Assembly (NCBI RefSeq): GCF_000243155.2
Contig: NC_018017.1
Location: forward strand, 1,674,001-1,738,000
Direction of reading: 5' to 3'
DNA: 64,000 nucleotides
From: Desulfitobacterium dehalogenans ATCC 51507
GTDB lineage: Bacteria > Bacillota > Desulfitobacteriia > Desulfitobacteriales > Desulfitobacteriaceae
Shown here: piece by piece, positions 11,450-54,219 of the stretch
Layout: each line of letters opens with the position of its first letter
Numbering within the stretch: position 1 is the stretch's first letter
Made by a program: the position numbers and the translations under genes
Notes under the pieces: generated by a model
The model's database searches: none
Told to the model about the DNA's origin: nothing
What the model saw: the letters and a program-made list of their open reading frames with translations, nothing else

Positions 11450-11476
11450 TGATAGAAATATAACCCAATATAGACT

Positions 11477-13355: not shown

Positions 13356-13370
13356 ACAGAGGCATACTCT

Positions 13371-13498
13371 CGCCACCAAGGGGAACCAGAGGGGTACGAT
13401 TATACACTCAAGGCATGTGGAGTGCGTAATAATGATGACGTATGTGGTAAGAAGGGTAATAAGGCAGGTCAACCGCTATATGTAGTGGTTTGAAGAAA
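13371..13498 (+). repeat. Dispersed intergenic repeat, copy B
   Basis: Contains CCACCAAGG, CTCAAGGCATGTGGAGTG, TAATAATGATGACGTATG and, 45 bases later, TATATGTAGTGGTTTGAAG running into a hairpin. It is the longest copy and shares the final TAGTGGTTT box with copy D and with 29001-29010. Confidence 0.6.
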
Positions 13499-13544
13499 AA
13501 AATGCCCCAAAAAACGGGGTTGACCCCGTTTTTTGGGGCATTTT
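13499..13544. terminator. Very strong bidirectional hairpin
   Basis: A perfect stem of about 21 bp (AATGCCCCAAAAAACGGGG and its complement) around a TTGA loop. A-runs and T-runs occur on both sides of the stem. Confidence 0.8.
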
Positions 13545-13750
13545 ATAGATGATATTGGAGATTTTGATAATGACAGCGGGTAACATCCACCGAGCGGAGT
13601 AGTTATAAATATAGATAGAAAGTAAATGAGTACAATGATATAGTGTGAATTGTGCATATACGTAAAATATTATGAAGTAAAGATTGTTGATGTAAGATAA
13701 TGATAAACAGGAATTTATTAATATCAATATTTAGTAGATAGGAGAAAAGA

Positions 13751-37182: not shown

Positions 37183-38424
37183 TTAATCATCTTTGCCCAA
37201 GTTCAATACTTGTAAGGCAATATAAACATTGACCATATGATCAACTCGGCGCAGGTCGAAGCCTGTTACTTGTTCGATTTTTTTGATGCGGTTACGCAGG
37301 GTGTTTTCATGAACATAGAGTGCTTTAGCGCATTCGGCAATCTGACATTTATACTCGATAAAGACCCTGAGACTGTCCAGCAATCCTGTATTCTCAGCTT
37401 GGTCGTATTCAATCAGAGGACCTAGAACCCGTTGGCTGAATTCCTCCAGTTCCCTGGCCGGCTGAGTAAAGATAAATTTAAGAAACCCCATCTCTTCAAA
37501 GTAGCAAACGCTTTTATGATCAAAGACTTTTCCTAATTCCCAGGCAACCTTGGCTTCCTGATAGCTTTTATATAAATCTGTGACAGAAGGGACTCCTGAG
37601 CCTATTCCCACACCGATTGAGGAACGTTTTTTTCCGTGGTCAGCGAGCCGGTCGAGAAAGCTGTTAATAAAATTAGCCAAGGAAGTTTTAAGCTTTGCCT
37701 TCTTTAATCCGTTAATATTGAGAATAACCACCAATTGAAGGTTGATATAAGCACTGATCGGTGAGGAGTGGTTAAATAAGCGGGGCAGTATTTCCCGGGC
37801 CGTTTTAAAATCTTTATCTGGGAGGTCAATAACTAAGGCAAGCAAGGATCCCTGTAAATTCCACCCCCAGGATTTCACCTTTTCGTGGATAGTCGCTTTT
37901 GAGTCATAATTGTTGTAAAGGATATCGCGAATGAAATCGTCCCGGTATTGTTCTTGTCTTAAGCTGTCTTCACAGCTGCTTTTCAGTGAGAGAAGCAAGG
38001 GCATAGACGCATCTAAGATAGTTTGCTTGTCTTCTGCAGACAGAGGTTTTAGCTTTAGTGCATTGGTAACGGGGGTGGTGTCCAGGACAATACAATAGCC
38101 CAAGCAATAATCTCCGGTCAGCAAGGGCAAATAGACAAAGGGAAAGATCTGATTATTTAAAGTGAATTGAGCATGATGCAGAATGTGCTCAGAGCGGTTT
38201 AGAAAATCAGCTTCATTGATTTTTACATCGGGAACATATAAGAACTCATCTAAGTTAAGATTGAGGTTCAAGGGATCATGGCAAGCCAAAATACGGTGGA
38301 CTGAATTGGTAAGCAGCACCGGCCGATTAAGGATTTGAGATAAGCGCCAGATTAAGTGAGGTATACCTTTACCTTGGGCAAGATCTTGAATGAGCTGATA
38401 GAATAGGCCACCGGGATTAGTCAT
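37183..38424 (-). CDS. PucR/CdaR-type transcriptional regulator
   Basis: 413 residues from ATG 38424, with GGAAGG 9 bases upstream; GTG 38433 is possible. A GAF-like N-terminal sensor region (about 20-170) is followed by a GGDEF-like middle domain (SSIGVGIGSGVPSVTDLYKS, EAKVAWELGK). The C-terminal PucR helix-turn-helix is AECAKALYVHENTLRNRIKK, near residue 375. Such regulators respond to a small ligand. It overlaps the upstream FeS-subunit gene by 8 bases and so is cotranscribed with the molybdoenzyme it probably controls. Confidence 0.85.
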   Translation of the reverse strand: MTNPGGLFYQLIQDLAQGKGIPHLIWRLSQILNRPVLLTNSVHRILACHDPLNLNLNLDEFLYVPDVKINEADFLNRSEHILHHAQFTLNNQIFPFVYLPLLTGDYCLGYCIVLDTTPVTNALKLKPLSAEDKQTILDASMPLLLSLKSSCEDSLRQEQYRDDFIRDILYNNYDSKATIHEKVKSWGWNLQGSLLALVIDLPDKDFKTAREILPRLFNHSSPISAYINLQLVVILNINGLKKAKLKTSLANFINSFLDRLADHGKKRSSIGVGIGSGVPSVTDLYKSYQEAKVAWELGKVFDHKSVCYFEEMGFLKFIFTQPARELEEFSQRVLGPLIEYDQAENTGLLDSLRVFIEYKCQIAECAKALYVHENTLRNRIKKIEQVTGFDLRRVDHMVNVYIALQVLNLGKDD

Positions 38425-39016
38425 TACGGTCACCTTCCTTCATGATAGTATGGTTCGGGAGATGTAAGCCAACCTGTTTCCCTATTTTAAGTGGGTGATA
38501 GCGGGCTGCCGGCCGAGTAACCTGAATTCGGGGGATTCCAGGGAGGGTCTTAAGCAAAAGGTGCTCGTGATGTTTCAAGGGATCAAAGAGTTGCAAAGCT
38601 TCGACAGGACAGGCCGCTATACAGAAAGGTTCCTCACCTTCTTCCAATTTATCGAAGCATAAATCGCATTTGATGACTTTTCCGGTATCGGGGAGAAGTA
38701 CAGGAGCTTCGAAAGGACAGCTGCGTATACAGGTGCCGCAACCCTTGCATTTTCCTTCGTCGAAAACGACAATACCGTCTCTCCGTTTACGGTAGGCGTG
38801 ATTAGGACATAAACGAAAACATTCAGGATTGAGACAATGATTACAGGATGAAGAAAGATAGTATTTCAGGAGACGCCCTTCCATTGCCAATTCAATGGCA
38901 GTTACTTTGCGCAGAGTAATACCTGGCGGCAAGTTATGGTTGACAGAGCATGCCGTCTGGCAAGAACGGCAGCCAAGACAACGGTTTGGATTAAAAACAA
39001 AACCTTTTTGATTCAT
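38417..39016 (-). CDS. Four-cluster ferredoxin subunit (DmsB/NrfC-like)
   Basis: The start is ATG 39016, which lies 4 bases after the stop of the catalytic gene; upstream starts would be inside that gene. 199 residues. Four cysteine groups are present: CLGCRSCQTAC near residue 13, CNHCLNPECFRLCP near 58, CKGCGTCIRSCP near 89, and CDLCFDKL with CIAACP near 117-136. They bind four [4Fe-4S] clusters. It would pass electrons to or from the catalytic subunit. No membrane-anchor gene lies in this operon, which suggests a soluble two-subunit enzyme. Confidence 0.88.
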   Translation of the reverse strand: MNQKGFVFNPNRCLGCRSCQTACSVNHNLPPGITLRKVTAIELAMEGRLLKYYLSSSCNHCLNPECFRLCPNHAYRKRRDGIVVFDEGKCKGCGTCIRSCPFEAPVLLPDTGKVIKCDLCFDKLEEGEEPFCIAACPVEALQLFDPLKHHEHLLLKTLPGIPRIQVTRPAARYHPLKIGKQVGLHLPNHTIMKEGDRND

Positions 39017-39020
39017 TTTG

Positions 39021-41087
39021 CTACCCCATCTTAACCAAATTAACGAAGCAATTATTATAAGCAATACCAGGGCTTCCAGAAAAGATTTGTCCTAAATCTG
39101 TACTCTCAAAACTAAGCAGGGTATTGATTAGTTTGTTGTTCATATCCTCCATCCCCATATAAGTGATGACGATATCAGGTGGGAGGCTGAGGGAGAAGGA
39201 AACGGGCAATTCCAGTTCACCCATTTCATTATATACTTTCGCCAGATCCCCTTCTGCCAGGTTTTTTTGCCGGCCGGTGTCAGGATGCATGAGGAGTAAA
39301 GGGGCGTTTTCTAAACGACGTAATAGATCGATAGTATAAAACTGAGAGTTTAGAGTAATAGGTGAGCGGACAACCATTAAGCGAAAAGGATAGGAATATG
39401 ATGATACAGGCTGGTCAACAGGAATAGGCAAGGGAGGGGCCCGATGGAGGGCAGCTGTATGGGAGAAAAATTCATAGCGCCCAGAGGCTGTAGGAAACTG
39501 ACGATCCTGCCAGGGGACAGCCGGCAGGTTCACCCGGGCGGGGTGATGGGCCAGTTCGCGGTAGTCAGTGATACCCAGAGAATCATTGAGGGAAGCAAAT
39601 TCTTGAGTCAGCCATGCCCGGGCATCCCCGTGTAGGGGAAAAGAGCTTAAACCTGGTTTGAGCTGATGAAGCACAGAAGCCAGCCCGTGCATTATTTCAA
39701 AGTCCGACTTGCTTTCTCCTAAGGGGGGAATAGCTTGTTGGTTAATCGCCGCACCATAATGCCATAATGAAATAACGACATCTTCAAATTCAAAAGGAGA
39801 AGAAACAGGCAGCACATAATCAGCCATCTGAGCGGTGGCAGAGAGAGTTTGATCAGCGACAACCACTGTATCAATAGTTTTCATGGCCTGGATAATTTGT
39901 GCCGAGTCGGGGTCCTGGGCCACCGGGTTTCGTCCGGCAACCCACAGGAACTTTATAGGCGGATCAAGGGTATCCAAATGAGTATACCAATCGGTCCCCA
40001 GAATTCGATTGTCAGTATTATTTTCTGATAAACGCTGTCTTACTCCGTAGGGCAAACGGAGTTTGCCGTACTTACCGGCATGTTGTAACTGTTCATAGGA
40101 AGTATAATGCACATTACCGCCAGAAATGCCGATGTTACCGGTTAATGCGGCAAGGCTGTCAATTATTCTGGCGTTTTGTCCGCCGGAGGGACCTCGTTGA
40201 ATTCCAGGTCCCAACCTGATCGTTGCGGGTTTGATGGTACCATACAAGCGTGCTAACTCGTACAGTTCGGTGATGGGAATACCGGTAGAAGATGAAACAT
40301 GGTTGAGATCGACGGTTTCTATATAATTACGGTATTCAGGCCAGCCAAAGGTGAAATTATTTAAAAACTCATGGTCGACCAGATGTTCCTCAACTAAGAT
40401 TTTGGCAAGCCCCAGAGCCAGGTCACCATCTGTTCCCGGGCGTATCCGATAATAAATATCACTGCGGGCAGCTGTTGAGGTGAAGATGGGATCAATCACC
40501 ACAATCATTGCCCCTTCATCCTGAGCTCCAAAAATATAACGCATCTGGTGTATGGTCGTCCAAGCCGGATTCGCACCCCAAATGAGAATGAGGCGAGAGT
40601 TCTTCATGTCTTCAGGAAGGGGCTTTTTAAGTGCACCATAATTTAGAATGAAAGCATCAGTTCCAGCAGATACACAGGGGTTGCCTAAAAGCGTGGTAAT
40701 CGGTCCCAAGGAGCCAAAAAGGCCTTCTACGCTTTGGCTTAAAAGGCCTGTAGTTCCCAAAAATTTATTCATGCTGACAGGTAATAGGCTGCCATACTCT
40801 TGATCGATTTCAACCAGCTTGTTCCCGATTTCCGTGAAAGCCTGTTTCCAGGAAATCCTTTGCCAATTTCCGCTCCCTTTCCTTTGCTGTTTAAGAGGAT
40901 AAAGAACCCGGTAGGGAGAGTAGACCAGTTCTTTCAGCGCATAACCCTTGGCGCAGATTTTTCCCTGGGTATAAGGATCGCGGGGATCTCCTTTTATGTT
41001 GATAATTCGGCCGTCGACGACATCGGTTAGGAGGCGGCATGATGCGGGACAATCGGCTGTACAGACATTACAGTAGGTCTGAGACAT
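39021..41087 (-). CDS. Molybdopterin oxidoreductase, cytoplasmic (no Tat signal)
   Basis: 688 residues from ATG 41087 (GGAGG 10 bases upstream). DMSO-reductase superfamily: [4Fe-4S] cysteines C6, C9, C13 and C45, RISWKQAFTEIG, LIWGANPAWT, VVIDPIFTSTAARSD and a C-terminal MGD-binding domain (SPITLNSQFYT, HPDTGRQKNLAEGD). The usual Mo-ligand site has Cys138 (LLGNPCVSAG), so sulfur ligation is likely. There is no twin-arginine signal and no membrane subunit, in contrast with the two plus-strand operons. The substrate is unknown. It is the first gene of a three-gene operon ending in a PucR-type regulator. Confidence 0.88.
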   Translation of the reverse strand: MSQTYCNVCTADCPASCRLLTDVVDGRIINIKGDPRDPYTQGKICAKGYALKELVYSPYRVLYPLKQQRKGSGNWQRISWKQAFTEIGNKLVEIDQEYGSLLPVSMNKFLGTTGLLSQSVEGLFGSLGPITTLLGNPCVSAGTDAFILNYGALKKPLPEDMKNSRLILIWGANPAWTTIHQMRYIFGAQDEGAMIVVIDPIFTSTAARSDIYYRIRPGTDGDLALGLAKILVEEHLVDHEFLNNFTFGWPEYRNYIETVDLNHVSSSTGIPITELYELARLYGTIKPATIRLGPGIQRGPSGGQNARIIDSLAALTGNIGISGGNVHYTSYEQLQHAGKYGKLRLPYGVRQRLSENNTDNRILGTDWYTHLDTLDPPIKFLWVAGRNPVAQDPDSAQIIQAMKTIDTVVVADQTLSATAQMADYVLPVSSPFEFEDVVISLWHYGAAINQQAIPPLGESKSDFEIMHGLASVLHQLKPGLSSFPLHGDARAWLTQEFASLNDSLGITDYRELAHHPARVNLPAVPWQDRQFPTASGRYEFFSHTAALHRAPPLPIPVDQPVSSYSYPFRLMVVRSPITLNSQFYTIDLLRRLENAPLLLMHPDTGRQKNLAEGDLAKVYNEMGELELPVSFSLSLPPDIVITYMGMEDMNNKLINTLLSFESTDLGQIFSGSPGIAYNNCFVNLVKMG

Positions 41088-41394: not shown

Positions 41395-43767
41395 ATGATG
41401 AACATTTCGAGACGTAACTTCATTAAGGGTGGTGTGGCTGGAACAGCAACACTGGGATTGTCCGGCAGCTTGCTCTTTGCCGACAAATGGTTGCGCCCCG
41501 CCACCGCGGCAAGCGATTCAGGAGAAAGGATAGCCTATACGTACCACCCCCCGGGCTGTGGTGGCCGATGTGCGTATCAATGCACAGTGCGGGACGGCAA
41601 GCTGGTAAAGATTGAACCGAATGATTGGCCGGATCACCGGTATTCCGTGCTCTGCACACGTGGGCTGAGCGAACTGCAGCGGGTGTATAGCCCTGACCGT
41701 CTCCAAACTCCTTTGAAAAGAGTAGGGGAAAGGGGCGAAGGCAAATTTGTTCCGATCTCTTGGGATGAGGCTATTACAACGGTTGCGGACAAATTTAAAG
41801 AATTGCACAGCCAATATGGCGGCAAATCCATTTTGAAAATGATTTCGGCAAATCAGGAATATGCAATGCCGCTTTTATCATCATTGTTAGGAATGCCAAT
41901 TGCCCTCGAAACTTCGATTGATACCGGAATGGCTAGTGGATATGAGGAAGTAACAGGCACAGCGCCTTTTGGTTATTCTCATCATGAGATTACAGACCTG
42001 GTCAATTCTAAGACGATCATCATGATAGGCGTTAATATTTTTGAAACGACGGTAGCTGATTCCCAATTCGTTTTTGAAGCGAAGGAAGCAGGTGCCAAAC
42101 TTATTGTCGTAGACCCCAATTACAGTACTACAGCGTCAAAAGCCGATCAATGGATTCCGATCAAGCCAGGTTCCGATCCGGCTCTGCTCCTGGGTATGAT
42201 TAACATTATCCTTGCCAATGGCTGGTATCAAGCCGACTTCCTGCAGAAGAATACATCCGCGCCCTTTTTAATCAGAGCGGATAATCAGCACTTGCTCCGG
42301 CAAAACGACTCTGCCGACGGGCCTGATGAGAATCCGTTCATGGTGTGGGATGAGGTTAGCGATTCGCTGCAGCCTTATAACGCCGCTGGAATTCAACCTA
42401 AATTAGAGGGAGAATTCACTGTCGGCGGGATGCAGGTCAAAACTGTATTCTCTGCATTAAAGGAACAAACAAAGCAATATACACCAGCCTGGGCTGCTGA
42501 GACTACAGAAATACCGGAACAGACCATCATAGACTTAACCCGGCAATATGCTACAGGCGGTCCGGCACGTCTGGCCTGGGGCTTTGGCGGCGCAGAGAAG
42601 ATTTCCAATAGCGATATTTTCGGGCATGCCGGGGCTATCCTCGGGGCTCTGACCGGTAATTTCGGGCGAACAGGCGGCGGTGTAGGCAATTGCCTGTTCC
42701 ATAGAATCAGCTGGGCATATGTTACACCGCTTGCCCCATGGCCGTTGCCGCCTCAGTTCAAGACCGGTGTAATGGAAATGCCTACTGCCCTCATGCGTTC
42801 TCGACCGAATTCTGTAAAAGCCGTTCTCAACCTTGGGAACAGCTTCCAGCAGCATTTTCCTAATTTCCATCAAGCCGAAAAATGGTTCAAAGAACAATTA
42901 GAATTTATAGTTACGGTCGATGTATGGGACAATCTCAGCGTAGCTTACTCCGATATTGTACTGCCTATCGGCAGCTGTTTTGAGAGCAACTATGATATCA
43001 CTCGATTCCAATTGAACAGAAATCATGCTCTTCTTTCCGAAAAAGTAATCGAACCCCTCTTTGAAAGCAAGAGCGATTTTGAGATCGAACAGTTATTGGC
43101 TGCCAGATTAGGATTTGAAGAATACATGCCCAAAACCCCGGAAGATTATATAAGAGCCCAGCTGAGTTCTCCCCATCCTTTCCTGGAAGGAATCACGGTG
43201 GAAACGCTTAAAGCAAATAATTTCATTATGCGTTTGAATTGCCCGACAGAACCTTATATAGCTTCCAAGGATCAGATATATAAAACGCCATCTACTAAAC
43301 TGGAGATCTACAATGAAAAAATGATAGAATTCGACCAAGCTTTACCGGCATATGAAGAACCCGCGGAAATGAACTCTGAGTTAAGGCAAAAGTATCCGCT
43401 GCAATTTGCTCAGTATCGTTCCCGGTTCCATGTTCATTCCCAGTTCATGAGAGTCTCCTGGATTAGGCAGTTTTGCCCTGAGCCAAGGCTGGAACTCAAC
43501 CCCTTTGACGCCAAGAGTAGGGGATTGGCAAATGGAGACCTCGTTGAGGTGTTCAATGACCGGGGTGAATTTAAAGCCCGCTGCAAGATTATGAATGATC
43601 TGCGGTCAGGGGCAGTCAGGATGGAAGAAGGCTGGTGGTCTAAAGATATGCCTGAAGGAGATATGAATAATGTAATCAATGATGCCTTTAATCCCCGTGG
43701 ATTTAAGCGGAAATACGGACCGATCTTTCCTTTTTATGATACTTTGGTTGAAGTGAAGAAAGCTTAG
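41395..43767 (+). CDS. Tat-exported molybdopterin oxidoreductase catalytic subunit (operon 1)
   Basis: 790 residues, ATG after GAAAGGAAAATC (a second ATG follows directly). The Tat signal SRRNFIKGG at residues 5-13 with a hydrophobic region to about 30 sends the folded enzyme across the membrane. Fe-S cysteines are C55, C59, C63 and C87. ISWDEAITTVADKF, MIGVNIFETT and VVDPNYSTTASKAD are MGD-binding motifs, and the C-terminal domain ends in KYGPIFPFYDTLVEVKKA. No cysteine occurs in the expected Mo-ligand stretch (PIALETSIDTGMASGYEEVTG, one segment split around T), so Ser or Asp may coordinate Mo. The substrate is unknown. Confidence 0.9.
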   Translation: MMNISRRNFIKGGVAGTATLGLSGSLLFADKWLRPATAASDSGERIAYTYHPPGCGGRCAYQCTVRDGKLVKIEPNDWPDHRYSVLCTRGLSELQRVYSPDRLQTPLKRVGERGEGKFVPISWDEAITTVADKFKELHSQYGGKSILKMISANQEYAMPLLSSLLGMPIALETSIDTGMASGYEEVTGTAPFGYSHHEITDLVNSKTIIMIGVNIFETTVADSQFVFEAKEAGAKLIVVDPNYSTTASKADQWIPIKPGSDPALLLGMINIILANGWYQADFLQKNTSAPFLIRADNQHLLRQNDSADGPDENPFMVWDEVSDSLQPYNAAGIQPKLEGEFTVGGMQVKTVFSALKEQTKQYTPAWAAETTEIPEQTIIDLTRQYATGGPARLAWGFGGAEKISNSDIFGHAGAILGALTGNFGRTGGGVGNCLFHRISWAYVTPLAPWPLPPQFKTGVMEMPTALMRSRPNSVKAVLNLGNSFQQHFPNFHQAEKWFKEQLEFIVTVDVWDNLSVAYSDIVLPIGSCFESNYDITRFQLNRNHALLSEKVIEPLFESKSDFEIEQLLAARLGFEEYMPKTPEDYIRAQLSSPHPFLEGITVETLKANNFIMRLNCPTEPYIASKDQIYKTPSTKLEIYNEKMIEFDQALPAYEEPAEMNSELRQKYPLQFAQYRSRFHVHSQFMRVSWIRQFCPEPRLELNPFDAKSRGLANGDLVEVFNDRGEFKARCKIMNDLRSGAVRMEEGWWSKDMPEGDMNNVINDAFNPRGFKRKYGPIFPFYDTLVEVKKA

Positions 43768-43780
43768 GGGGTGAAGAAAG

Positions 43781-44401
43781 ATGGCAAAAAAATTAGGCAT
43801 GGTGATTGATTTAAAACGCTGCACGGGATGCACAACATGTGCAAACGCGTGCAAGATGCAGAATAATGTTCCCATGGGTATGTTATGGAACCGTGTGCTC
43901 ACAGAAGGCGGGGAAGAGTATGATACTAGCGCAGGAGTATACCCGAATTTGCAAAAGAGCTTCCTCCCGATTGCCTGCCAGCATTGCGAAAATGCAGCGT
44001 GTGTTAAGGTTTGTCCGGTAGGTGCTACTTACAAAGATGAGCTGGGCAGGGTAGTGATTAATTACGACAGATGCATTGGCTGCCGTTTCTGCATGGCTGC
44101 CTGCCCCTATAATGCCCGGGTATTTAACTGGGAGGCACCGGTGCGTGACCCTGGCTTTAATTATGGAGATAAAGACGTGCCGATTCGTAAAGTAGGTGTA
44201 ATGGAAAAATGCTCATTGTGCAAGGAACGTACCGACACAGGATTAGAACCCATGTGTGTAAAGTGTTGCCCGACTAGAGCTCGGAAATTCGGTGATTTGA
44301 ATGATCCGGAAAGTGAAGTTTCCCGTTTAATTCGGGAGAGGAATGGGCAGCAACTTTTATCGGAAAAAGGGACGAAGCCGCAAGTATATTATTTGGGCTA
44401 G
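43781..44401 (+). CDS. Four-cluster ferredoxin subunit (operon 1)
   Basis: 206 residues, 13 bases after the catalytic gene with AGGGGGTGAAGAAAG upstream. Cysteine groups CTGCTTCANAC, CQHCENAACVKVCP, CIGCRFCMAACP and CSLCKERTDTG...CVKCCP bind four [4Fe-4S] clusters, as in NrfC/PsrB/DmsB. No signal of its own; it is presumably exported as a complex with the Tat-bearing partner. It links the molybdenum subunit to the quinone-reactive membrane protein encoded next. Confidence 0.92.
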   Translation: MAKKLGMVIDLKRCTGCTTCANACKMQNNVPMGMLWNRVLTEGGEEYDTSAGVYPNLQKSFLPIACQHCENAACVKVCPVGATYKDELGRVVINYDRCIGCRFCMAACPYNARVFNWEAPVRDPGFNYGDKDVPIRKVGVMEKCSLCKERTDTGLEPMCVKCCPTRARKFGDLNDPESEVSRLIRERNGQQLLSEKGTKPQVYYLG

Positions 44402-44418
44402 AAGGAAGGTGTAATTAG

Positions 44419-45624
44419 ATGGATAAAAAGGGAAACCTAACTATCGGAATGGTTGTCTTGGGGCTATTAACTCTTATGGGGTTAGGAGCTTGGGCTTTCC
44501 AGCTGGTCAATGGACTTGGCGTAACAGGAATGAATAATGTTGTTTCCTGGGGATCCTATATCGCGATGTTCATGCTCTTTGTTGGTCTTTCCGCCGGGGG
44601 TCTGATTGTGTCTTCTTCGGCAACGGTATTCAATATTCCGTCTTTTAAAGTTGTAGCGAAACCGGCAGTCATTCTTTCTACGGTCTGCATTATTATCGCT
44701 GGGATATTCATTATTGTGGATATTGGCAGTCCGTGGCGGATTTACAATTTAATCCTGCATCCTCAATTTCGTTCTCCTTTGATGTGGGATGTGGTGGTCA
44801 TCACCTTGTACCTAGCGCTGAATCTGGTCTACCTCTATTTCATGAGCCGATCTGAGCCCGATGAAAGGAAGTTAAAGATTATTTCCAGAATCGCCCTGCC
44901 GACGGCAGTGCTGGTCCACTCCGTCACAGCTTGGATTTTTGGTTTGCAGATAGCCCGCGCAGGCTGGCACAGTGCTCTGATGGCACCTCTATTCGTTGCT
45001 TCGGCCTTGGATTCAGGACTGGCCTTATTGATTATCGCCTTGTTGGCCTTGAACAGATTGAAACTATTTGCAGTGGAGAAAAAACTGATTGGGACTTTAG
45101 CCGGCCTTCTCGTTACCTGTGTTGCCGTTGATGCTTTTTTCGTCTTCTCGGAGGTTCTGACGATGCTTTATCCGGGAGGAGACTCGACCATGGCTGTATT
45201 AAGGGAAATGACCAGCGGGTTTGCTGCTCCGTTTTTCTGGGGGGAAATCATCCTTGGCTTTATCCTGCCCTTTATGATTCTGGTATTTAAGAAGAACAGA
45301 GAGAATACGAATTATGTTATTTTTGCTTCGGCAATCGTGATTTTAGGAGTATTTTGCAAACGCTTCTGGTTGCTGTTTTCCTCGTTTATCCATCCTAATG
45401 TTCAAGGGGCTCCCGGTGTTACCTATGGAAAATTTACTGAAACTATTGGGGATATGTGGTCCCTTCATGGCAGTTATGCGCCAACCTGGGTTGAATTGGC
45501 CATCATCATCGGCATGCTGTCCATGGGTGCCTTGCTCTTCTCTTACCTCAGCAGCCGGTTCCTTTTAGGAAGAGCCGACTTCATACCAACGGTGAAGCAA
45601 GGACAAGCAGCGGAGAACAAATAA
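44419..45624 (+). CDS. nrfD: NrfD/PsrC-type membrane anchor (operon 1)
   Basis: 401 residues, ATG after GAAGGAAGGTGTAATTAG. About ten hydrophobic segments, with SWGSYIAMFMLFVGLSAGGL in the second and AWIFGLQIARAGWHSALMAP in the middle. These are the NrfD/PsrC hallmarks, and the long form (two four-helix bundles plus extra helices) is PsrC-like. It exchanges electrons with the menaquinone pool. The C-terminus is cytoplasmic and polar. It completes a CISM-type (catalytic, FeS, membrane) complex with the two upstream genes. Confidence 0.9.
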   Translation: MDKKGNLTIGMVVLGLLTLMGLGAWAFQLVNGLGVTGMNNVVSWGSYIAMFMLFVGLSAGGLIVSSSATVFNIPSFKVVAKPAVILSTVCIIIAGIFIIVDIGSPWRIYNLILHPQFRSPLMWDVVVITLYLALNLVYLYFMSRSEPDERKLKIISRIALPTAVLVHSVTAWIFGLQIARAGWHSALMAPLFVASALDSGLALLIIALLALNRLKLFAVEKKLIGTLAGLLVTCVAVDAFFVFSEVLTMLYPGGDSTMAVLREMTSGFAAPFFWGEIILGFILPFMILVFKKNRENTNYVIFASAIVILGVFCKRFWLLFSSFIHPNVQGAPGVTYGKFTETIGDMWSLHGSYAPTWVELAIIIGMLSMGALLFSYLSSRFLLGRADFIPTVKQGQAAENK

Positions 45625-45675
45625 CATACTGAAGAGAATGAACGGCAAAATGGTTAGAAAGGAGGGAGGTTGGTC

Positions 45676-46341
45676 ATGATCTATTCCTGGACTGAGGTTT
45701 GGAAGTTGCGAACCGAGTTGTATAAGTTTTTTGGCAATTGCCTGTTGGAGCCAACCTCAGAAGCAGCGACAACACCCTTAAATGGAGGGCTGTGGGGAAG
45801 TTTTCCTTTAGAGCCGGCTAATCGGCAGATGGAGTCCGGGCTGGAGCAACTAAGAAAATGTACGGCAGACCTTAAAAATATGCTGCAAAATGAGGCTCGA
45901 CAAGAAGTTTTGGCGGAGTACACCAGCCTCTTTTTGGGACCTGGCCGGCCCAAAGCCCCGCCGTGGGAATCCGTGTATCGGACTGAAGAGCAACTGCTAT
46001 TTTCAAGAACAACGTATGAAGTGAGGAAAATCCTTGCGGACAACGGGTTGGAAATAGCAGAGAAAAACCACCAGCCTGAAGATCACATGGGTATTGAATT
46101 GCTTGCTTTAGCCATGATGAGTGAGAATTTGCTTGTTGTGCAGGATCTGGCGGAGCAAAAGACAAGGATTGCTCAACAGGCAGCCTTTATTGATGAGCAC
46201 TTGCTTTCCTGGATTCCCGAGCTTTACAGGGATGCCAAACAAAATGGCAGTGTAGGCTACTATGGAGGATTAATCGAGCTGATTTGGGGGGTTCTCATCT
46301 GGGATCGTGAACTTTTGCATGAGTTTTTGACTCAGGACTAG
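45676..46341 (+). CDS. TorD/DmsD-family molybdoenzyme chaperone (operon 1)
   Basis: 221 residues from ATG 45676 with GGAGGG about 10 bases upstream. All-helical TorD-like protein. The core signature is FLGPGRPKAPPWESVYRTEE (about residues 91-110), followed by EPDHMGIEL-like text (QPEDHMGIELLALAMM) at about 134. Such chaperones bind the Tat signal and hold the catalytic subunit until the Mo cofactor is inserted. It is the last gene of operon 1; a hairpin follows. Confidence 0.9.
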   Translation: MIYSWTEVWKLRTELYKFFGNCLLEPTSEAATTPLNGGLWGSFPLEPANRQMESGLEQLRKCTADLKNMLQNEARQEVLAEYTSLFLGPGRPKAPPWESVYRTEEQLLFSRTTYEVRKILADNGLEIAEKNHQPEDHMGIELLALAMMSENLLVVQDLAEQKTRIAQQAAFIDEHLLSWIPELYRDAKQNGSVGYYGGLIELIWGVLIWDRELLHEFLTQD

Positions 46342-46577: not shown

Positions 46578-48782
46578 ATGACTGATTCAAAAGGTGGCAA
46601 AGGATTTAGTCGGCGCAGTTTCTTAAAAGGTTCAACAGCTTTGGGCTTAAGTATGGGTCTATTTGGCCTGACTGCATGTACGAACAAAAATTCGGGCAGC
46701 AAGAGTACAATGGGTGTCCAGACCGGAGAAAAAACCTTGACCACGCTTACCTGTCCCCGCAACTGCTATGATTCCTGTTCTTTGATTGGGGAGAAAATCG
46801 ATGGGCGGATCGTCAGGATTGTCGGCGATCCTAAGAATCCCATAACGGCAGGTACACCTTGTGTCAAGGGGCAAACCCACATTAATGTGCTTTACCATCC
46901 TGACCGTATTTTACATCCGCTTAAGCGTGCCGGTAAAAAAGGGGAAGGAAAATGGGAAAAAATTACCTGGGATGAAGCCTATGATACGATTACCCAAAAA
47001 CTTAATGAAGCAATCGCCCAATACGGTTCGGAATCGATCATGCCCTATAATTTTTCGGGGACGATCGGGTTTATCCATCAGCATGGTGTTCCCTGGCGGT
47101 TTTTCAATAAGATCGGAGCGACGAATATCACCAGAACGGTATGCAATACCGGTGGTAAGGCGGCGTTGCCCTATACCTATGGCGATTTCTCATCGATTGA
47201 TCCGGAAAGCTTTGCCAAAACTAAGTGCTATGTTACCTGGGGAACCAATGAATCCTATACCAACGTCCATTCCGTGAAATTCATTCAACAAGCGCGGGAT
47301 AATGGTGCCAAACTCATTGTGGTTAATCCCCATCGCCATCCCCTGGCCTCACAAGCTGACTTATTTATTCAGCTTAAACCGGGAACAGATGCCGCTTTTG
47401 CCTTGGGCGTACAACATATCATTATCAATGAGAATCTTTATGACAAGGACTTTGTAGAAAACTACACGATGGGTTTCGAGGAGCTTAAACAACAAGTCCA
47501 GAACTATCCGCCGAGCAAGGTGGCTCAGATATGTGAAGTTACTGAAGAAGAAATAAGGGCGTTTGTGAAGATGTATACCCAGGCTAAGCCCTCGATTATT
47601 AGAATGGGCTTTGGCTTTGAAAGAAGGACTCATGGCGGGGCTATGGTCAGAGCTATTTCGTTTCTCCCTGCCCTGATGGGAGTTGTCGGCGTAGAGGGTG
47701 GGGGATTCAGCTATGTTAACTACAGCCATTATCCCTTTGACAACAATTACACGAAGCGACCTGATTTGGCTCCTCGCAAAACGCGAACCATTAACATGAA
47801 TGAATTAGGAAAGGCGATTGCGGGAGAGCTTCCGACCACTAAGGAGATTCCGGTTAAAGTATTGATCTGCTTCAGCGGGAATCCGATTCCTTCGGCACCC
47901 AATGTGAACATGATCAAGAAAGGATTGGAGAGAGAAGATTTATTCACAGTAGTCCACGAAGTGTTTATGACGGATACCGCAGATTATGCTGATATTATAC
48001 TCCCCGCTGCTCATTTCACAGAATTTGAGGATGTCGTTGCCGATTACCTTGGGTGGTATGTCCGGTACAGCGAACAAGCGCTAGAGCCCATGGGAGAATC
48101 CAAATCCAACGTGCAGCTGTTTAATGAGCTGGCCAAACGAATGGGCTTCACTGATGAATGTTTCAATGAAACATCGGCCGATATCATCAAGAAAGGGATT
48201 TTGAATAAGCCCATCTTTAAAGAGATCACTTATGAGAACCTGAGGAAAAATCACTGGATTAAGGTAGATTTCGGGAACGTCTTTAGTGACCACAAATTTA
48301 ATACTCCATCGGGGAAAATTGAATTCTATTCTGAGAGTATCAAAAAAGCAGGGTTGCATCCTGTGGCAGAATATCTACCGGAAGAGGAGAGTCAGGAAGG
48401 TTCTCCAGCGTTATTTGCTCAATACCCCATTAACCTCTTGACCCCGGCTTCACCGCAATTGTTAAGCTCACAATGGCATAATGTCCCCTATATCAAAGAA
48501 AACCTGGGTGAGCCTTTTGTCACGGTCAATGCCAAGGACGCAGAAGACAGGGGAATTAAAGATGGAGATTATTGTGTGATTCAAAATGACAGGGGACAGG
48601 TCAAGCTGAAAGCGAAGGTCAGCAATACTGCAGTTAAAGCAGGCGTTGCAGTGAGTTTCAAGAGCTATTGGAATAAGTATACAGATGGAAATACGATCAA
48701 TTGCTTAGCTCCCGATGGGATTGGTGATTTGGATGGAATCTCCACCTATAACACAAATTTAGTTCAAATCACGAAAGCTTGA
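46578..48782 (+). CDS. Tat-lipoprotein-like molybdopterin oxidoreductase catalytic subunit (operon 2)
   Basis: 734 residues, ATG after AGAGGAGGTACTTAA. The twin-arginine motif SRRSFLKG at residues 11-18 is followed by a hydrophobic run ending in a lipobox, FGLTAC (Cys34). It may therefore be lipid-anchored after Tat export. Fe-S cysteines are C59, C63, C67 and C95. ITWDEAYDTITQKL and TWGTNESYTNVHS are cofactor-binding motifs. The Mo-ligand site has Cys189 (TRTVCNTGG), a residue typical of sulfur-ligated members. NVHSVKFIQQARDNGAKLIV and the C-terminal MGD domain (LLTPASPQLLSSQWHNVPYI) are complete. The substrate is unknown. Confidence 0.9.
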   Translation: MTDSKGGKGFSRRSFLKGSTALGLSMGLFGLTACTNKNSGSKSTMGVQTGEKTLTTLTCPRNCYDSCSLIGEKIDGRIVRIVGDPKNPITAGTPCVKGQTHINVLYHPDRILHPLKRAGKKGEGKWEKITWDEAYDTITQKLNEAIAQYGSESIMPYNFSGTIGFIHQHGVPWRFFNKIGATNITRTVCNTGGKAALPYTYGDFSSIDPESFAKTKCYVTWGTNESYTNVHSVKFIQQARDNGAKLIVVNPHRHPLASQADLFIQLKPGTDAAFALGVQHIIINENLYDKDFVENYTMGFEELKQQVQNYPPSKVAQICEVTEEEIRAFVKMYTQAKPSIIRMGFGFERRTHGGAMVRAISFLPALMGVVGVEGGGFSYVNYSHYPFDNNYTKRPDLAPRKTRTINMNELGKAIAGELPTTKEIPVKVLICFSGNPIPSAPNVNMIKKGLEREDLFTVVHEVFMTDTADYADIILPAAHFTEFEDVVADYLGWYVRYSEQALEPMGESKSNVQLFNELAKRMGFTDECFNETSADIIKKGILNKPIFKEITYENLRKNHWIKVDFGNVFSDHKFNTPSGKIEFYSESIKKAGLHPVAEYLPEEESQEGSPALFAQYPINLLTPASPQLLSSQWHNVPYIKENLGEPFVTVNAKDAEDRGIKDGDYCVIQNDRGQVKLKAKVSNTAVKAGVAVSFKSYWNKYTDGNTINCLAPDGIGDLDGISTYNTNLVQITKA

Positions 48783-48806
48783 TTGATGTGAAAGGAGTCG
48801 TGAACT

Positions 48807-49343
48807 ATGGCTGGTCAGAAAGCATTTTTTTATAATCAAAATTATTGTGTAGGGTGCCATTCCTGTGAAACGGCATGTATGGTCAAGAACCAAGTCGATG
48901 TGGGGGTAAGCTGGAGGACATTGGATAGCTTTGAGGTTGAGATGAACGGAAGAATGGTGGAACGTTATCTTTCTCATTCCTGTATGCATTGTGCGGAACC
49001 TCAATGCGCTTCAGTATGTCCTACCAAAGCCTATACCAAACGCGAAGATGGACTGGTGATTCAGGACCACGATAAATGCGTGGGGTGCGGATATTGCATC
49101 TATGCTTGCCCGTATCAGGCGCCAAAGATGAATCCCAATACTAAAAAAACAGAAAAATGCACGGGCTGTTATGATTTGATTGACGCAGGGGAACAACCCA
49201 TGTGTGTCCGGGGGTGTCCGGTTCAGGTCTTAAAAATAGAGGATATCGATAAGCTTGATGCTGAGGGAGCGGTTAAGGAAGCAATCGGTTTCCAGGCCTT
49301 TGCCACCAATCCATCCATGCGTTTTGTGAAGATGAAGCAGTAG
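48807..49343 (+). CDS. Four-cluster ferredoxin subunit (operon 2)
   Basis: 178 residues, ATG after AAAGGAGTCGTGAACT. DmsB-like arrangement: CVGCHSCETACMVKN, CMHCAEPQCASVCP, CVGCGYCIYACPYQAP and CTGCYDLIDAG...CVRGCP. The text is closer to the minus-strand FeS subunit (both have YLSxSCxHC) than to that of operon 1, so these two operons probably share ancestry. Electron link between the catalytic subunit and the membrane anchors downstream. Confidence 0.92.
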   Translation: MAGQKAFFYNQNYCVGCHSCETACMVKNQVDVGVSWRTLDSFEVEMNGRMVERYLSHSCMHCAEPQCASVCPTKAYTKREDGLVIQDHDKCVGCGYCIYACPYQAPKMNPNTKKTEKCTGCYDLIDAGEQPMCVRGCPVQVLKIEDIDKLDAEGAVKEAIGFQAFATNPSMRFVKMKQ

Positions 49344-49381
49344 AGTGCTCTTAAGATTTAGACGCGAAGGGATGGGACGTT

Positions 49382-50077
49382 TTGAGTAGTCTGGGTAATA
49401 ACGAAATGCAGGAAATATTGGCTTATCGATGTGTTGTGTTCGATCTATTGCGAAGTCTATTTATATGGGAATGCCCGGAAGAGCTTTTCGCAGACATGAT
49501 CTCCTGGTCAGAGTTGGAACGTGATGAAGCAATGGCCGCAGACTGTGCAGAAGCTCGACTCAGAAAAGGTCTGTCATCCATATCCTCTGCAGAGCTGCAA
49601 AAGGTCTATCATGAAGCAACGATAGAGTTTACCAGACTCTTTGTGGGACCTTATCACTTGGAAGCTCCTCCTTATGAATCGGTATACCGCAACTCCAACC
49701 GGCTCATGATGCAGGATGTTACCATGAATGTCAAAAGGTTTTACAGAGAGAACGGTTATGAAAGAAGCGAGGTCTATAAGGAACCTGATGATCAGATCGG
49801 GGTAGAACTGGAGTTTATGTATGCCCTGAGTGAAGAGGCTTTGCAAGCTTTTCGGGAGGGGAATTTCGAGAGTTTAAAGAGGATTTTATCTGCTCAGGAA
49901 CAATTCATGGATCTTCACCTGCTAAAGTGGTTACCCCAATTCTGTCAGGATATCCTGAAATCGTCTCAGAACGAATTCTGGAGAAGTTTTGCTGTCTTTA
50001 CTGAGAACTACATTGAAGAAGACAAGGAACAGATCCAGCGGATTCAACGGGAACTCAATTTATATTGCCAGAGCTAA
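49382..50077 (+). CDS. TorD/DmsD-family molybdoenzyme chaperone (operon 2)
   Basis: 231 residues from TTG 49382; the ribosome site is weak (GGGATGGG), so another start is possible. FVGPYHLEAPPYESVYRNSN (about residues 85-105) and EPDDQIGVELEFMYAL (about 140) are the TorD signatures. It should guide export and cofactor loading of the operon 2 catalytic subunit. It sits before the anchor genes, unlike in operon 1 where it is last. Confidence 0.9.
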   Translation: MSSLGNNEMQEILAYRCVVFDLLRSLFIWECPEELFADMISWSELERDEAMAADCAEARLRKGLSSISSAELQKVYHEATIEFTRLFVGPYHLEAPPYESVYRNSNRLMMQDVTMNVKRFYRENGYERSEVYKEPDDQIGVELEFMYALSEEALQAFREGNFESLKRILSAQEQFMDLHLLKWLPQFCQDILKSSQNEFWRSFAVFTENYIEEDKEQIQRIQRELNLYCQS

Positions 50078-50103
50078 GCGGCGGAATGGAGGATAAGGAT
50101 TAT

Positions 50104-50982
50104 ATGTATCATTGGGGCTGGAAAATTATCATTTACTTGTTTTTAGGCGGATTAGGAGCAGGGGCTTATTTAACGTCTTTTGCAGCTCAAAAAGGCTGGT
50201 TGGGGGAGAACAGCAAACTGGACAGAGCGGGCTACTTTTTGTCCGGGCCTTGTATCGTCATAGGAAGTTTGTTGTTGTTTCTGGATCTTGGTATAGCTTT
50301 CTCTGATCCTCTCGGTGTTTTAAGAATGTTCGCCAACATTCATTCTGTAATGACCTGGGGAATTTATATATTATCGCTGTTCATTCTTGTTGGATTTCTA
50401 TCTGCTTATTACACATGGAAGAACAGAAAAGTACCTTCAATGTTATCTCTCCTTGGAGCAATTCTTGCTTTAGGAACCGGAGCCTATACCGGGGTTTTAC
50501 TGGCAGTGGTTACGTCTGTACCCTTCTGGAACACATTTCTTCTTCCTATATTATTTGTCGTTTCTGCTTTATCGACAGGTCTCGCTGCTACCGCATTGTG
50601 CGCGCATTTCCTGGAAAAGAAAGCGGAGCAAGCAGGGGATCGGCAAAGTGAAGCAAAGACGAACAAGATTCATCAAGTTTTACTTGGCTTAGAAGCGATT
50701 CTAATCATGATGCTTCTGGCATTTGCTTTAACAGGCGCAAAAGGGACGGATGCTGCTGCTTCTGCACAAATGCTTACCAGTGGTTCCTTAGCGTTGCCAT
50801 TCTGGCTGTTGGTTGTGGCAATCGGCTTAGTTTTCCCCTTGGCCTATTATATTGTCTCAGCTAAAGAACAGAAAAGAAGGCTTGCATCATTCTTTAATGT
50901 TATATCAACTGACTTTGCGGTGCTCATCGGAGGGCTGACACTGAGGGCAACCATAGTGTTATGTGCTGTGAGGGTTTTTTAG
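50104..50982 (+). CDS. DmsC/NrfD-type membrane anchor, first copy (operon 2)
   Basis: About 292 residues from ATG 50104 (AAGGA 4 bases upstream; ATG 50086 is possible). Eight or so membrane segments. YLFLGGLGAGAYLTSFAAQK in helix 1, RAGYFLSGPCIVIGSLLLF, SVMTWGIYIL and LRATIVLCAVRVF at the end are NrfD-like features. This short form resembles DmsC. The next gene encodes a paralogue with the same landmarks. The pair may form two quinone modules or a heterodimer. Confidence 0.88.
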   Translation: MYHWGWKIIIYLFLGGLGAGAYLTSFAAQKGWLGENSKLDRAGYFLSGPCIVIGSLLLFLDLGIAFSDPLGVLRMFANIHSVMTWGIYILSLFILVGFLSAYYTWKNRKVPSMLSLLGAILALGTGAYTGVLLAVVTSVPFWNTFLLPILFVVSALSTGLAATALCAHFLEKKAEQAGDRQSEAKTNKIHQVLLGLEAILIMMLLAFALTGAKGTDAAASAQMLTSGSLALPFWLLVVAIGLVFPLAYYIVSAKEQKRRLASFFNVISTDFAVLIGGLTLRATIVLCAVRVF

Positions 50983-50997
50983 ATAGGAGGGTAATCA

Positions 50998-51855
50998 TTG
51001 GGAAACTGGGGCTGGCTTATCATCGGCTTCCTATTCTTTGGAGGTCTTGGTTCAGGTGCTTATCTGGCATCTTTTGCAGCAGAAAAAGGCCTATTTGGAA
51101 AAGAAAACAATTTAGAGCGGGCTGGTTATTTTATCTCAGGTCCTTGCCTAGCTGTTGGACTGTTCCTTTTTTCCATGAACCTGGGTGTTAGCATCACTGG
51201 AATGTTAACCATGATCGGTAATCCTACTTCGGTGATGACTTGGGGGGTATATCTCTTATTCATTTTTATGGTCCTGGCATTTTTGAGTGCCTATCATAAA
51301 CGTGAAAACAAGAAAGTTCCTGCAATTATCTCAGGAGCAGGGGCATTACTGGCAGTGATAACAGCACTATACACCGGGGGACAGCTTTCTGTTCTTTTTG
51401 CTCAACCCTTCTGGAACACTATCCTTGTACCGGGATTATTTGTAGTGTCTGCCCTGATGATGGGATTGGCCTCTTCATCCCTGCTTGCCCGCATCATCGA
51501 AAAACCCGTTCAGCATGAGGGTGTTGTGGTAAATAGGGTAAACATCATCCTACTCTTTGTGGAATTAGTTCTTTTATTGGCTTTGCTTCTGATCTCTTTT
51601 TCAGGGGCTAAAGGTCCAGTGGCGGCTGATTCTGCCCGAATAGTTGTCGCTGGAAGACTTGCCTCCTATTTTTGGATTCTGTTAATTGCTGTCGGATTGG
51701 TTTTTCCACTTCTAAATAACTTCTACCCAAAGAAAAAGCGAGCTGAAAAGAGTGGTAGGATCTTAGGTTTGTTAAGTGAGATGGCTACACTCATCGGAGG
51801 GGCAACGCTGCGAGCCATTATAGTATTATCGGCATTACCTATCTGGACTATATAA
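50998..51855 (+). CDS. DmsC/NrfD-type membrane anchor, second copy (operon 2)
   Basis: 285 residues from TTG 50998, 8 bases after ATAGGAGGG. It parallels the preceding protein along its whole length: FLFFGGLGSGAYLASFAAEK, RAGYFISGPCLAVGLFLFSM, SVMTWGVYLL, PFWNTILVPGLFVVSALMMG and LRAIIVLSALPIWTI. About eight membrane segments. The tandem duplication is old, because the two differ at many positions, yet both keep the same length and motifs, so both are probably functional. Confidence 0.88.
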   Translation: MGNWGWLIIGFLFFGGLGSGAYLASFAAEKGLFGKENNLERAGYFISGPCLAVGLFLFSMNLGVSITGMLTMIGNPTSVMTWGVYLLFIFMVLAFLSAYHKRENKKVPAIISGAGALLAVITALYTGGQLSVLFAQPFWNTILVPGLFVVSALMMGLASSSLLARIIEKPVQHEGVVVNRVNIILLFVELVLLLALLLISFSGAKGPVAADSARIVVAGRLASYFWILLIAVGLVFPLLNNFYPKKKRAEKSGRILGLLSEMATLIGGATLRAIIVLSALPIWTI

Positions 51856-51870
51856 TCGATCCAGCCGGGA

Positions 51871-53100
51871 GTGACTACTAAGGGTATGAAAATAGAGATG
51901 AAAAAAGCGCTTATCATGACTTTATCTTTAATACTGGCAGTTTTTATAGGCTTAAGCTGGGTTAGGCCGGGAAATGATGTGCTGTTGCAAGCTAAAGAGG
52001 TCCTACCCGAGGCGCAGTCTTTTAAGAAGATTGCGTCTTCACCCCTTACTTTAGAAGGGATAAGTCAGGACTCCAGTGGAGAAAAAGAGATCAAAGGCTA
52101 TGTTGTCATTGCAAAGGCAAGTTCATATGGTGGACCAATTACCATCGCAACAGGAATTAACCCATATGGAGTTATTCTTGGTACCGCACTTATTGAACAC
52201 AAGGATACACCTTCATTTATTAGAGTTGTTATGAAACATGATTATCTCAAGCAATTCGAAGATAAAAAAATAACCGACCCCCTATCGATCAAACAGGATA
52301 TTAATGCGATATCGGGAGCAACTTATAGCTCCCGAGGCATTGCCGAAGCGATTTCAATAGGTAGTCATGAAGTAGCCAGAAATCAGTTTGGGCTGGAGGT
52401 TGAAGATGAAGAGGCAGCATTCGTTTTTGGAGTGAGGGAAGGTTCTGTTATTGTCTTAGTCATCCTGATGCTTGTTGGGATAGCACTAAAAAATGATAGA
52501 ATCCGCTGGATAACCATGGCAGGAAGTCTGGTGTTGATTGGTTTCCAATACAACACACCCATCTCACTTTCAAATCTTGCCTCCTTTTTAATGGGATATC
52601 TTCCTTCAATTCGGCAGAACTTGGTTTGGTATATATTTTTAACTGTTATTCCGATATTAACTTTTCTGATTGGAAAAAACCTATACTGCTTCTGGCTTTG
52701 TCCCTTTGGAGCCCTGCAAGAGTTATTGGCCAAAGTATTTGTAAGTAAAGAGGTCATTTGCTGTAGCCGAGCGGTAGAACAAAAGGTTGCCCTGGTCAGG
52801 TATGTTTTATTATATATTGCCTTATTGGGCGCTGTAATCTATCAGTCGCCGGGATTGGCGGGTTATGAACCTTTTGCCACCCTATTCGGAATGCAAGGAG
52901 ATATCGTCGAGTGGCTGATTTTAATGGTTGTCTTATTATCCGCATTATTTATTCGGAGATTCTGGTGCCGCTTTTTTTGTCCGGGAATGATTTTCAATAG
53001 AATTATTTTGAGATTAAGACATCATTGGATTGATTTTAAAAGGAAATTTGGAGCAAAATTAAACCAAGGGTGTCCCGCACAAAACTCGGTGGATCAATGA
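51871..53100 (+). CDS. NosR/PceC-like FMN-binding, FeS-type membrane protein
   Basis: Up to 409 residues; the start is uncertain (GTG 51871 or ATG 51886). One N-terminal membrane helix (about 12-30). Then comes an extracytoplasmic FMN_bind domain with SGATYSS at 148-154, where Thr151 would carry covalent FMN. Five or so helices follow, containing CFWLCPFGAL and CRFFCPGM, the two NosR-type cysteine motifs on the cytoplasmic side. The C-terminal ferredoxin part of NosR is absent, as in PceC of organohalide respirers. It probably conducts electrons across the membrane to or from the exported molybdoenzyme. Confidence 0.85.
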   Translation: MTTKGMKIEMKKALIMTLSLILAVFIGLSWVRPGNDVLLQAKEVLPEAQSFKKIASSPLTLEGISQDSSGEKEIKGYVVIAKASSYGGPITIATGINPYGVILGTALIEHKDTPSFIRVVMKHDYLKQFEDKKITDPLSIKQDINAISGATYSSRGIAEAISIGSHEVARNQFGLEVEDEEAAFVFGVREGSVIVLVILMLVGIALKNDRIRWITMAGSLVLIGFQYNTPISLSNLASFLMGYLPSIRQNLVWYIFLTVIPILTFLIGKNLYCFWLCPFGALQELLAKVFVSKEVICCSRAVEQKVALVRYVLLYIALLGAVIYQSPGLAGYEPFATLFGMQGDIVEWLILMVVLLSALFIRRFWCRFFCPGMIFNRIILRLRHHWIDFKRKFGAKLNQGCPAQNSVDQ

Positions 53101-53109
53101 GGTGCGACG

Positions 53110-53208
53110 ATGAATTTCAGCGAAAATAAACATGATAGTCTATTTCTATTCCTCGTAGGTTTAACTGTTTTGTTGATTTGTATCAACTTTTTGACCCGTT
53201 TTATTTAG
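53110..53208 (+). CDS. Small single-pass membrane protein, 32 residues
   Basis: ATG 53110 begins 9 bases after the NosR-like stop, with GAGGTGCGACG as ribosome site. The peptide starts MNFSENKHDS, then has one hydrophobic helix (LFLFLVGLTVLLICINFL) and a short TRFI end. Size, position and coupling are typical of small subunits of respiratory membrane complexes. No homologue comes to mind. It could stabilise the two DmsC-like anchors or the NosR-like protein. Confidence 0.6.
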   Translation: MNFSENKHDSLFLFLVGLTVLLICINFLTRFI

Positions 53209-53873: not shown

Positions 53874-54015
53874 ATTTTAAATTATCCTGAGACGGTGGTG
53901 ATTTTATGATTAGAAAATATTAAATTAAAGAGCCATGTCAAGCAACCGCTAAAAGCCCCTAGTAAGATCAGTTCGGATGTATTGTGTAGTTAGGGAATGG
54001 AGAGGAGTAATTATT

Positions 54016-54219
54016 ATGCCATATGTAAATATTAGAATCACGAATGAAAACGTCACTCCGGAAAAGAAAGCATTGCTTATCAAAGGAGCTACTCAGTTAC
54101 TTGTGGATGTGTTGGGCAAAAACCCCAATACAACGGTCGTGGTGATCGATGAGGTCAATACTGATAATTGGGGTATTGCCGGGGAAACTATAACAGCTCG
54201 TAGAAAAGACGGCCGCTAA
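54016..54219 (+). CDS. 4-Oxalocrotonate tautomerase-family protein
   Basis: 67 residues from ATG 54016, after GGAGAGGAGTAATTATT. MPYVNIRITNENVTPEKKAL begins with the catalytic Pro2 exposed after Met removal. Arg-containing IR and the beta-hairpin VVVIDEVNTDNWGIAGE follow. Normal size for the small 4-OT subunit, which acts as a hexamer. The substrate is unknown; no aromatic-degradation genes are nearby. Confidence 0.88.
   Translation: MPYVNIRITNENVTPEKKALLIKGATQLLVDVLGKNPNTTVVVIDEVNTDNWGIAGETITARRKDGR

Follow-up and report, generated by a model that had tools for sequence, protein, structure and literature searches.

A 64,000-nucleotide window of the Desulfitobacterium dehalogenans ATCC 51507 genome (positions 1674001-1738000 of the single contig NC_018017.1, 4,321,753 bases) carries an operon that joins an exported molybdoenzyme to two membrane anchors, a flavin mononucleotide (FMN)-binding membrane protein and a 32-residue membrane peptide, pep32. 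The operon is a variant within the complex iron-sulfur molybdoenzymes (CISM). We analysed the ancestry of the FMN protein, which resembles the RdhC (PceC) proteins of organohalide respiration, together with the relationship of the two anchors, the nature of pep32 and the conservation of the arrangement in another species of the genus (genome G002, locus L043; hereafter the sister species).

The molybdoenzyme operon and its conservation

Seven genes lie on the plus strand at 46578-53208 in the order moA-moB-torD-nrfD1-nrfD2-rdhC-like-pep32 (Table 1), separated by gaps of 10-38 nt and with a ribosome-binding sequence visible at most starts. A preliminary description of this DNA had placed the last four open reading frames (ORFs) in tandem in one operon; their coordinates and strand are confirmed, and moA, moB and torD join them upstream. 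The block is kept in the sister species, with identities of 93% (moA), 98% (moB), 94% (torD), 90% (nrfD1), 85% (nrfD2), 85% (FMN gene) and 26/32 residues (pep32), so the seven-gene arrangement is more than chance. Because the ratio of nonsynonymous to synonymous substitution rates (dN/dS) between the two species is 0.07 for moA, 0.04 for moB, 0.25 for torD, 0.13 for nrfD1, 0.22 for nrfD2 and 0.26 for the FMN gene, all six large genes are, by this measure, under purifying selection. The pep32 gene differs by four synonymous and six nonsynonymous changes, too few sites to judge selection.

Table 1. Features of the operon and its flanks, in window coordinates (aa, amino acids)
Feature	Start	End	Strand	Description
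Terminator-like hairpin	46381	46418	+	15-pair stem found by pattern scan; intrinsic-terminator-like; parts the upstream Mo operon from the moA operon
moA	46578	48782	+	exported [4Fe-4S] Mo-bis(pyranopterin guanine dinucleotide) (Mo-bisPGD) catalytic subunit, 734 aa; Pfam Molybdopterin, E 5e-50
moB	48807	49343	+	four-cluster [4Fe-4S] relay subunit, 16 Cys, DmsB/NrfC type; Pfam Fer4_11
torD	49382	50077	+	TorD/DmsD-type chaperone for the exported Mo subunit; PF02613, E 4e-34
nrfD1	50104	50982	+	first NrfD-type membrane anchor; PF03916
nrfD2	50998	51855	+	second NrfD-type membrane anchor; PF03916
rdhC-like FMN protein	51886	53100	+	404 aa; Pfam FMN_bind and Fer4_5
pep32	53110	53208	+	32 aa; best read as detached helix 7 of the RdhC-type protein; ribosome-binding sequence GAGGTG
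MPG	53253	53873	+	3-methyladenine DNA glycosylase; PF02245; outside the operon

MoA carries a twin-arginine pair at residues 12-13, cluster cysteines at 59, 63, 67 and 95, and a possible lipobox, LTAC, with Cys34. Acetylene hydratase, PsrA and formate dehydrogenase are its best relatives among solved structures; in all of them a cysteine serves as the Mo ligand, and Cys189 of MoA aligned at or beside that residue. The protein scored 328 bits against an NCBIfam DmsA cut-off of 777.7, and MoB gave a DmsB-like NCBIfam match under its cut-off. Since the DmsA score lies far below the cut-off and Cys189, not Ser, occupies the ligand place, a Ser-type DMSO reductase was ruled out, and we read MoA as a putative Cys-type molybdoenzyme. 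A moA-guided scan of 84,980 species returned relatives of at most 38% identity, in loci that, as far as contig ends allowed them to be followed, held neither an FMN protein nor two anchors.

Similarity to the sister species stops exactly after the pep32 stop codon, which marks the MPG gene as foreign to the unit. We therefore rejected MPG as an operon member; in the sister species MPG is absent at this place and a tautomerase gene comes next, and in the window MPG sits between pep32 and a tautomerase gene at 53977-54219. At the other end, a palindrome like but not identical to the hairpin of Table 1 occupies the same place between Mo operons in the sister species, and no dehalobox (TTAAT-N4-ATTAA) was found in the region upstream of moA. 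Two other Mo operons adjoin, a divergent MoA/iron-sulfur (FeS) pair with a PucR-type regulator (37183-41087) and a MoA-FeS-NrfD-TorD operon (41395-46341); upstream of this cluster is a partial Mutator-family transposase ORF (35700-36317).

The RdhC-like flavoprotein and pep32

The FMN protein consists of an N-terminal helix, an FMN_bind domain outside the membrane and a membrane core with two CX3CP motifs, CFWLCP and CRFFCP (52687-52704 and 52966-52983). Its flavin motif is SGATYS, with Thr146 at 52321-52323. RdhC proteins have been defined in sequence by an FMN motif [S/T]G[A/S]TX[S/T] and two CX3CP motifs (PMC5928378), all of which are intact here. The preliminary description had put the flavin at Thr151; a TAG codon in the sister species closes the reading from GTG 51871, so the start is ATG 51886 and the residue becomes Thr146. 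Flavinylation of this threonine is predicted from the motif and from the ApbE flavin transferase genes present in both genomes. The absence of the NosR ferredoxin part was correctly noted before: the protein ends about 38 residues past the second CX3CP and scores 64.8 bits against a NosR cut-off of 1000.

A tree of 61 related proteins places the window FMN protein, with its orthologue, inside a 12-row clade (support 100/97) whose other ten members adjoin rdhA/rdhB. The window protein shares 29-32% identity with the other RdhC-type proteins that D. dehalogenans encodes. Neither the window operon nor its orthologue contains rdhA or rdhB, and we therefore class the protein, on its tree position, as RdhC-like by descent rather than as part of a dehalogenase cluster. 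FMN proteins of another, separate clade are also linked to molybdoenzymes, in operons of two types, one with two DmsC anchors (L045, L051; see below) and one with the order MoA-FeS-NrfD-TorD-ferredoxin-FMN. The latter is widespread and occurs in several genera (L047, at 6656-14529, L052, L053, L055, L059, L063, L086 and L185). A single clade for all Mo-linked FMN proteins was rejected (p 6.6e-53), so the pairing of an RdhC/NosR-type FMN protein with a Mo operon arose at least twice. The earlier proposal that a PceC-type protein is used with a molybdoenzyme thus stands insofar as the two are paired in two species under purifying selection; its uniqueness does not, since the same genome holds two more operons of a Mo enzyme with an FMN protein. 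Elsewhere, a 690-residue ORF (L048, 4353-6425) that adjoins an rdhA-rdhB-cprK cluster is matched twice by the reductive dehalogenase model, with two Fe-S segments, and is possibly a duplicated, fused RdhA-like protein.

RdhC has been described with six helices (PMC5928378). An extra transmembrane helix after the second CX3CP is fused C-terminally in 17 of 60 family proteins, including all intact FMN proteins of the other Mo-linked clade. Among the remaining proteins, 26 of 43 are followed by a separate hydrophobic micro-ORF (25-60 residues, starting -23 to +72 nt from the stop codon), against 30 of 492 control genes in the same loci (Fisher p 8.8e-18, an optimistic value because relatives are not independent). 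One pair of close relatives shows both states, with a separate 34-residue ORF in L077 and a near-identical sequence fused in frame, at a very similar junction, in L071. On the FMN-protein tree the fused and split states changed at least four times, with L185 left out of this count because its gene is cut by the contig end. Additionally, pep32 aligns with micro-ORFs of rdh operons. Based on these counts, the L077/L071 pair and the alignment, the best reading of pep32 is a seventh helix of the RdhC-type protein that has become detached, a state common in rdh operons, rather than the extra membrane protein first proposed. A model of the fused L071 protein has a predicted helix at 421-447; its structure matches (RnfG) cover the FMN domain only and do not show the packing of helix 7. 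In reductive dehalogenase operons, micro-ORFs of 25-60 residues directly follow rdhC at L046, L057, L060, L061, L073-L078, L084, L087 and L180, among other loci. In D. hafniense, rdhC5 and rdhD5 flank a short locus that has been noted without evidence of protein coding (PMC9888536). Post-rdhC micro-ORFs have probably been overlooked by annotation.

The two anchors and their quinone site

The anchors had been described as DmsC-like. Pfam NrfD (PF03916) matches both of them, nrfD1 at E 1e-35 (123.9 bits) and nrfD2 at E 3e-26 (93.2 bits) with a cut-off of 25.8, whereas the DmsC family (PF04976) matches neither at E 1e-3. They form a sister clade (97/95) in which the nrfD2 branch measures 1.89 and that of nrfD1 0.67, and by this phylogeny they are sister duplicates. 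Both branch among NrfDs found elsewhere in NrfC-NrfD pairs without a Mo subunit. No other tandem NrfD pair was found among 83 genomes of the class (E 1e-40) or 398 of the phylum (E 1e-45), although the phylum scans scored few candidates per genome and could miss rare pairs; an NrfD pair in genome G056 was rejected as tandem with its genes 10 kb apart.

A helix-2 Asp, Glu, His or Ser of NrfD-like proteins is thought to protonate quinone, and its substitution stops quinol oxidation in PsrC and DmsC (PMC8076601). Mapped onto E. coli NrfD, NrfD1 keeps Asp61 (50284-50286), Ser81, Tyr128 and Arg281. The helix-2 Asp61 is shared by NrfD1 and all 16 single NrfDs compared, and E. coli NrfD has His. In NrfD2 of both species Asn61 (51178-51180) replaces the Asp, so that the acidic or His quinone residue of transmembrane helix 2 is missing, while Ser78, Tyr125 and the gate Arg272 are retained. 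The NrfD2 model (predicted local distance difference test score, pLDDT, 83) has the NrfD fold, with best matches that include ActC (Z 25.3, 2.6 A, 275 aligned residues), PsrC (Z 22.4, 3.0 A, 236) and ActF (Z 20.4, 3.4 A, 265); sequence-only and profile searches of solved structures with the anchors gave no match, and it was fold comparison that gave these. In alternative complex III the second NrfD-like subunit, ActF, is an exception among such proteins and binds no quinone (PMC8076601). NrfD2 is, judging from its residues, apparently quinone-blind as well. Alternative complex III also shows that the premise of the preliminary description, one anchor per known complex, is not general, and tandem DmsC pairs in the four genomes of the genus that were examined contradict it too.

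A DmsC-DmsC-FMN neighbourhood does exist, in an operon separate from the one described here, whose anchors are NrfD. This unrelated operon, MoA-FeS-DmsC-DmsC-FMN-FeS-TorD, occurs in both species (L045, at 5025-12830, near 1.90 Mb of the D. dehalogenans genome; L051). In E. coli numbering, Ser62, His65 and Glu87 are retained by the first DmsC of this operon; the second has Phe, Tyr and Ala/Val at these positions in both species, with Ser82 and Arg271 retained. All 44 other distinct DmsC sequences keep the three residues. The quinone residues are intact in both anchors of the tandem DmsC operons without an FMN gene (MoA-FeS-DmsC-DmsC-~168 aa, L247-L250, four genomes of the genus), and single-anchor Mo operons with an FMN gene retain the helix-2 Asp. 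The D61N change of NrfD2 and the losses in the second DmsC, set against intact DmsC elsewhere, show that in two unrelated anchor families the second anchor, adjoining an FMN gene, loses its quinone residue, a correlation noticed while looking and not set out beforehand.

Candidate mechanism, alternatives and related systems

The gene content suggests a menaquinone-linked molybdoenzyme that combines a quinone anchor, a quinone-blind anchor resembling ActF and an RdhC flavin module, a reading to which we assign a probability of about 50%. MoA, MoB and NrfD1 would form a menaquinone-linked, outward-facing CISM, with MoA and MoB outside and NrfD1 oxidizing (or reducing) menaquinone and passing electrons to MoB. 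After duplication of the anchor gene, NrfD2 would have lost the acidic quinone residue and kept the fold and the central Arg, and it would most likely conduct ions or provide docking without binding quinone, as ActF does in alternative complex III. The RdhC module, the six-helix FMN protein plus pep32, would have been captured from a reductive dehalogenase operon. Most likely, a covalent FMN at Thr146 would let it exchange electrons with the Fe-S/Mo subunits on the outer side of the membrane, and the flavin may serve as a second electron entry or in reductive activation.

Several points weigh against this reading. The ApbE genes are unlinked to the operon. Since NrfD2 keeps Ser78 and Tyr125, weak quinone binding there is possible, and the Asn could still hydrogen-bond. 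The loss of quinone residues in second anchors amounts to two independent events, which is few. Furthermore, PceC is about 50-fold scarcer than PceA (PMC8905343) and absent from the solved PceA2B2 complex (PMC10624902). RdhC proteins may therefore not carry the main electron flow, and a transient activation role for the flavoprotein would be equally compatible with known facts as a route from quinol through flavin to Mo. The authors of those studies propose such a helper role, and NosR is likewise tied to NosZ activation (PMC5928378). On this basis the RdhC module could be a NosR-like, sub-stoichiometric helper that reductively activates or repairs the exported Mo/Fe-S subunits, with the steady route running from quinol through NrfD1, whose quinone site is normal, and MoB to MoA. 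We consider this explanation rather unlikely, as the restriction of quinone-residue loss to second anchors beside FMN genes suggests a structural partnership, not a loose helper.

It is improbable that the FMN protein and pep32 are bystanders, an rdhC left after loss of rdhAB that came by chance to lie behind a Mo operon and serves other dehalogenases or nothing. The descent of the protein from RdhCs adjoining rdhAB, its place in the last part of the unit, and D. dehalogenans rdhA genes at 0.83 and 4.18 Mb with no close rdhC detected would fit this origin. However, the FMN gene is under apparent purifying selection in both species, no rdhAB remnant lies alongside it, and FMN proteins of this kind joined another group of Mo operons independently. 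In the sister genome only two rdhA genes exceed the family cut-off; they share one locus that has an rdhC of its own, so that no obvious client is left there, which argues against an rdhC retained to serve some other dehalogenase. We regard as very unlikely a reversed scheme in which substrate oxidation by MoA is coupled to menaquinone reduction at NrfD1 while the flavin module draws off electrons at another potential. The Cys-ligated relatives of MoA do include formate dehydrogenases and acetylene hydratase, so that MoA may not be a reductase; yet the unit has no matching acceptor gene, and characterised NosR/RdhC partners are reductases (PMC5928378), although a NapH-like protein paired with an ethanol oxidase has also been reported (PMC8238504).

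The preferred reading, a complex with one quinone anchor, one quinone-blind anchor and a flavin module, may have a more general form, which we offer only as a doubtful conjecture. The architecture may have been reached twice in unrelated anchor families, the second anchor dropping its quinone site once an RdhC/NosR-type flavoprotein joins and replaces quinone there. Such a complex would draw on a membrane flavin as well as on the quinone pool, the second anchor would be free for ion coupling, and RdhC proteins generally would use helix 7, often as an overlooked micro-ORF. As far as the searched papers show, with subscription journals mostly outside the search, neither the helix-7 micro-ORF nor the recurrent loss of the second-anchor quinone site appears to have been described.

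What PceC/RdhC does in organohalide respiration is still an open question. Selection has kept an RdhC-clade protein next to a molybdoenzyme in two genomes, one of them lacking a matching dehalogenase, which provides a system to test RdhC apart from dehalogenases. The helix-7 identity of the micro-ORF is good cause to include this ORF in the expression and quantification of RdhC. With the quinone site lost repeatedly in second anchors, 'one quinone anchor plus one ion or docking anchor' becomes a testable design beyond alternative complex III.

With PsrABC and related CISM (PhsABC, TtrABC, DmsABC), the window operon shares an exported Mo subunit, which has a Cys at the Mo-ligand place as in Psr, a four-cluster Fe-S subunit, an NrfD-type anchor of eight helices and a TorD chaperone. 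It differs in its pair of NrfD anchors, of which one lacks the acidic quinone residue, and in encoding an RdhC flavoprotein with a putative detached helix. The RdhC/PceC proteins of pceABCT and cpr clusters have in common with the window protein the SGATYS motif, the two CX3CP motifs, the tree nesting and the downstream micro-ORF helix, whereas the window protein lies in a molybdoenzyme operon without rdhA/rdhB alongside. NosR has the same outside FMN domain and CX3CP membrane core but also a C-terminal ferredoxin domain that the window protein lacks, and NapH shares the CX3CP core and a supposed quinol-oxidizing role but has no FMN domain. Flavinylated NapH-like proteins are similarly paired, in modular fashion, with various extracytoplasmic oxidoreductases; the partners named are nirS, exaA, nosZ and pce (Meheust et al. 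2021, PMC8238504), and a word search of the main text of that paper found neither molybdopterin nor NrfD.

Alternative complex III (ActC/ActF) offers the parallel for the anchors, as it has a pair of NrfD-like subunits of which only one has a quinone site. Unlike that complex, the window operon encodes no c-type haem subunit: a Pfam scan of its proteins found no cytochrome c, and the sole CXXCH lies within the first cluster motif of moB. Its anchors have eight helices instead of ten, and the two are sister duplicates of each other.

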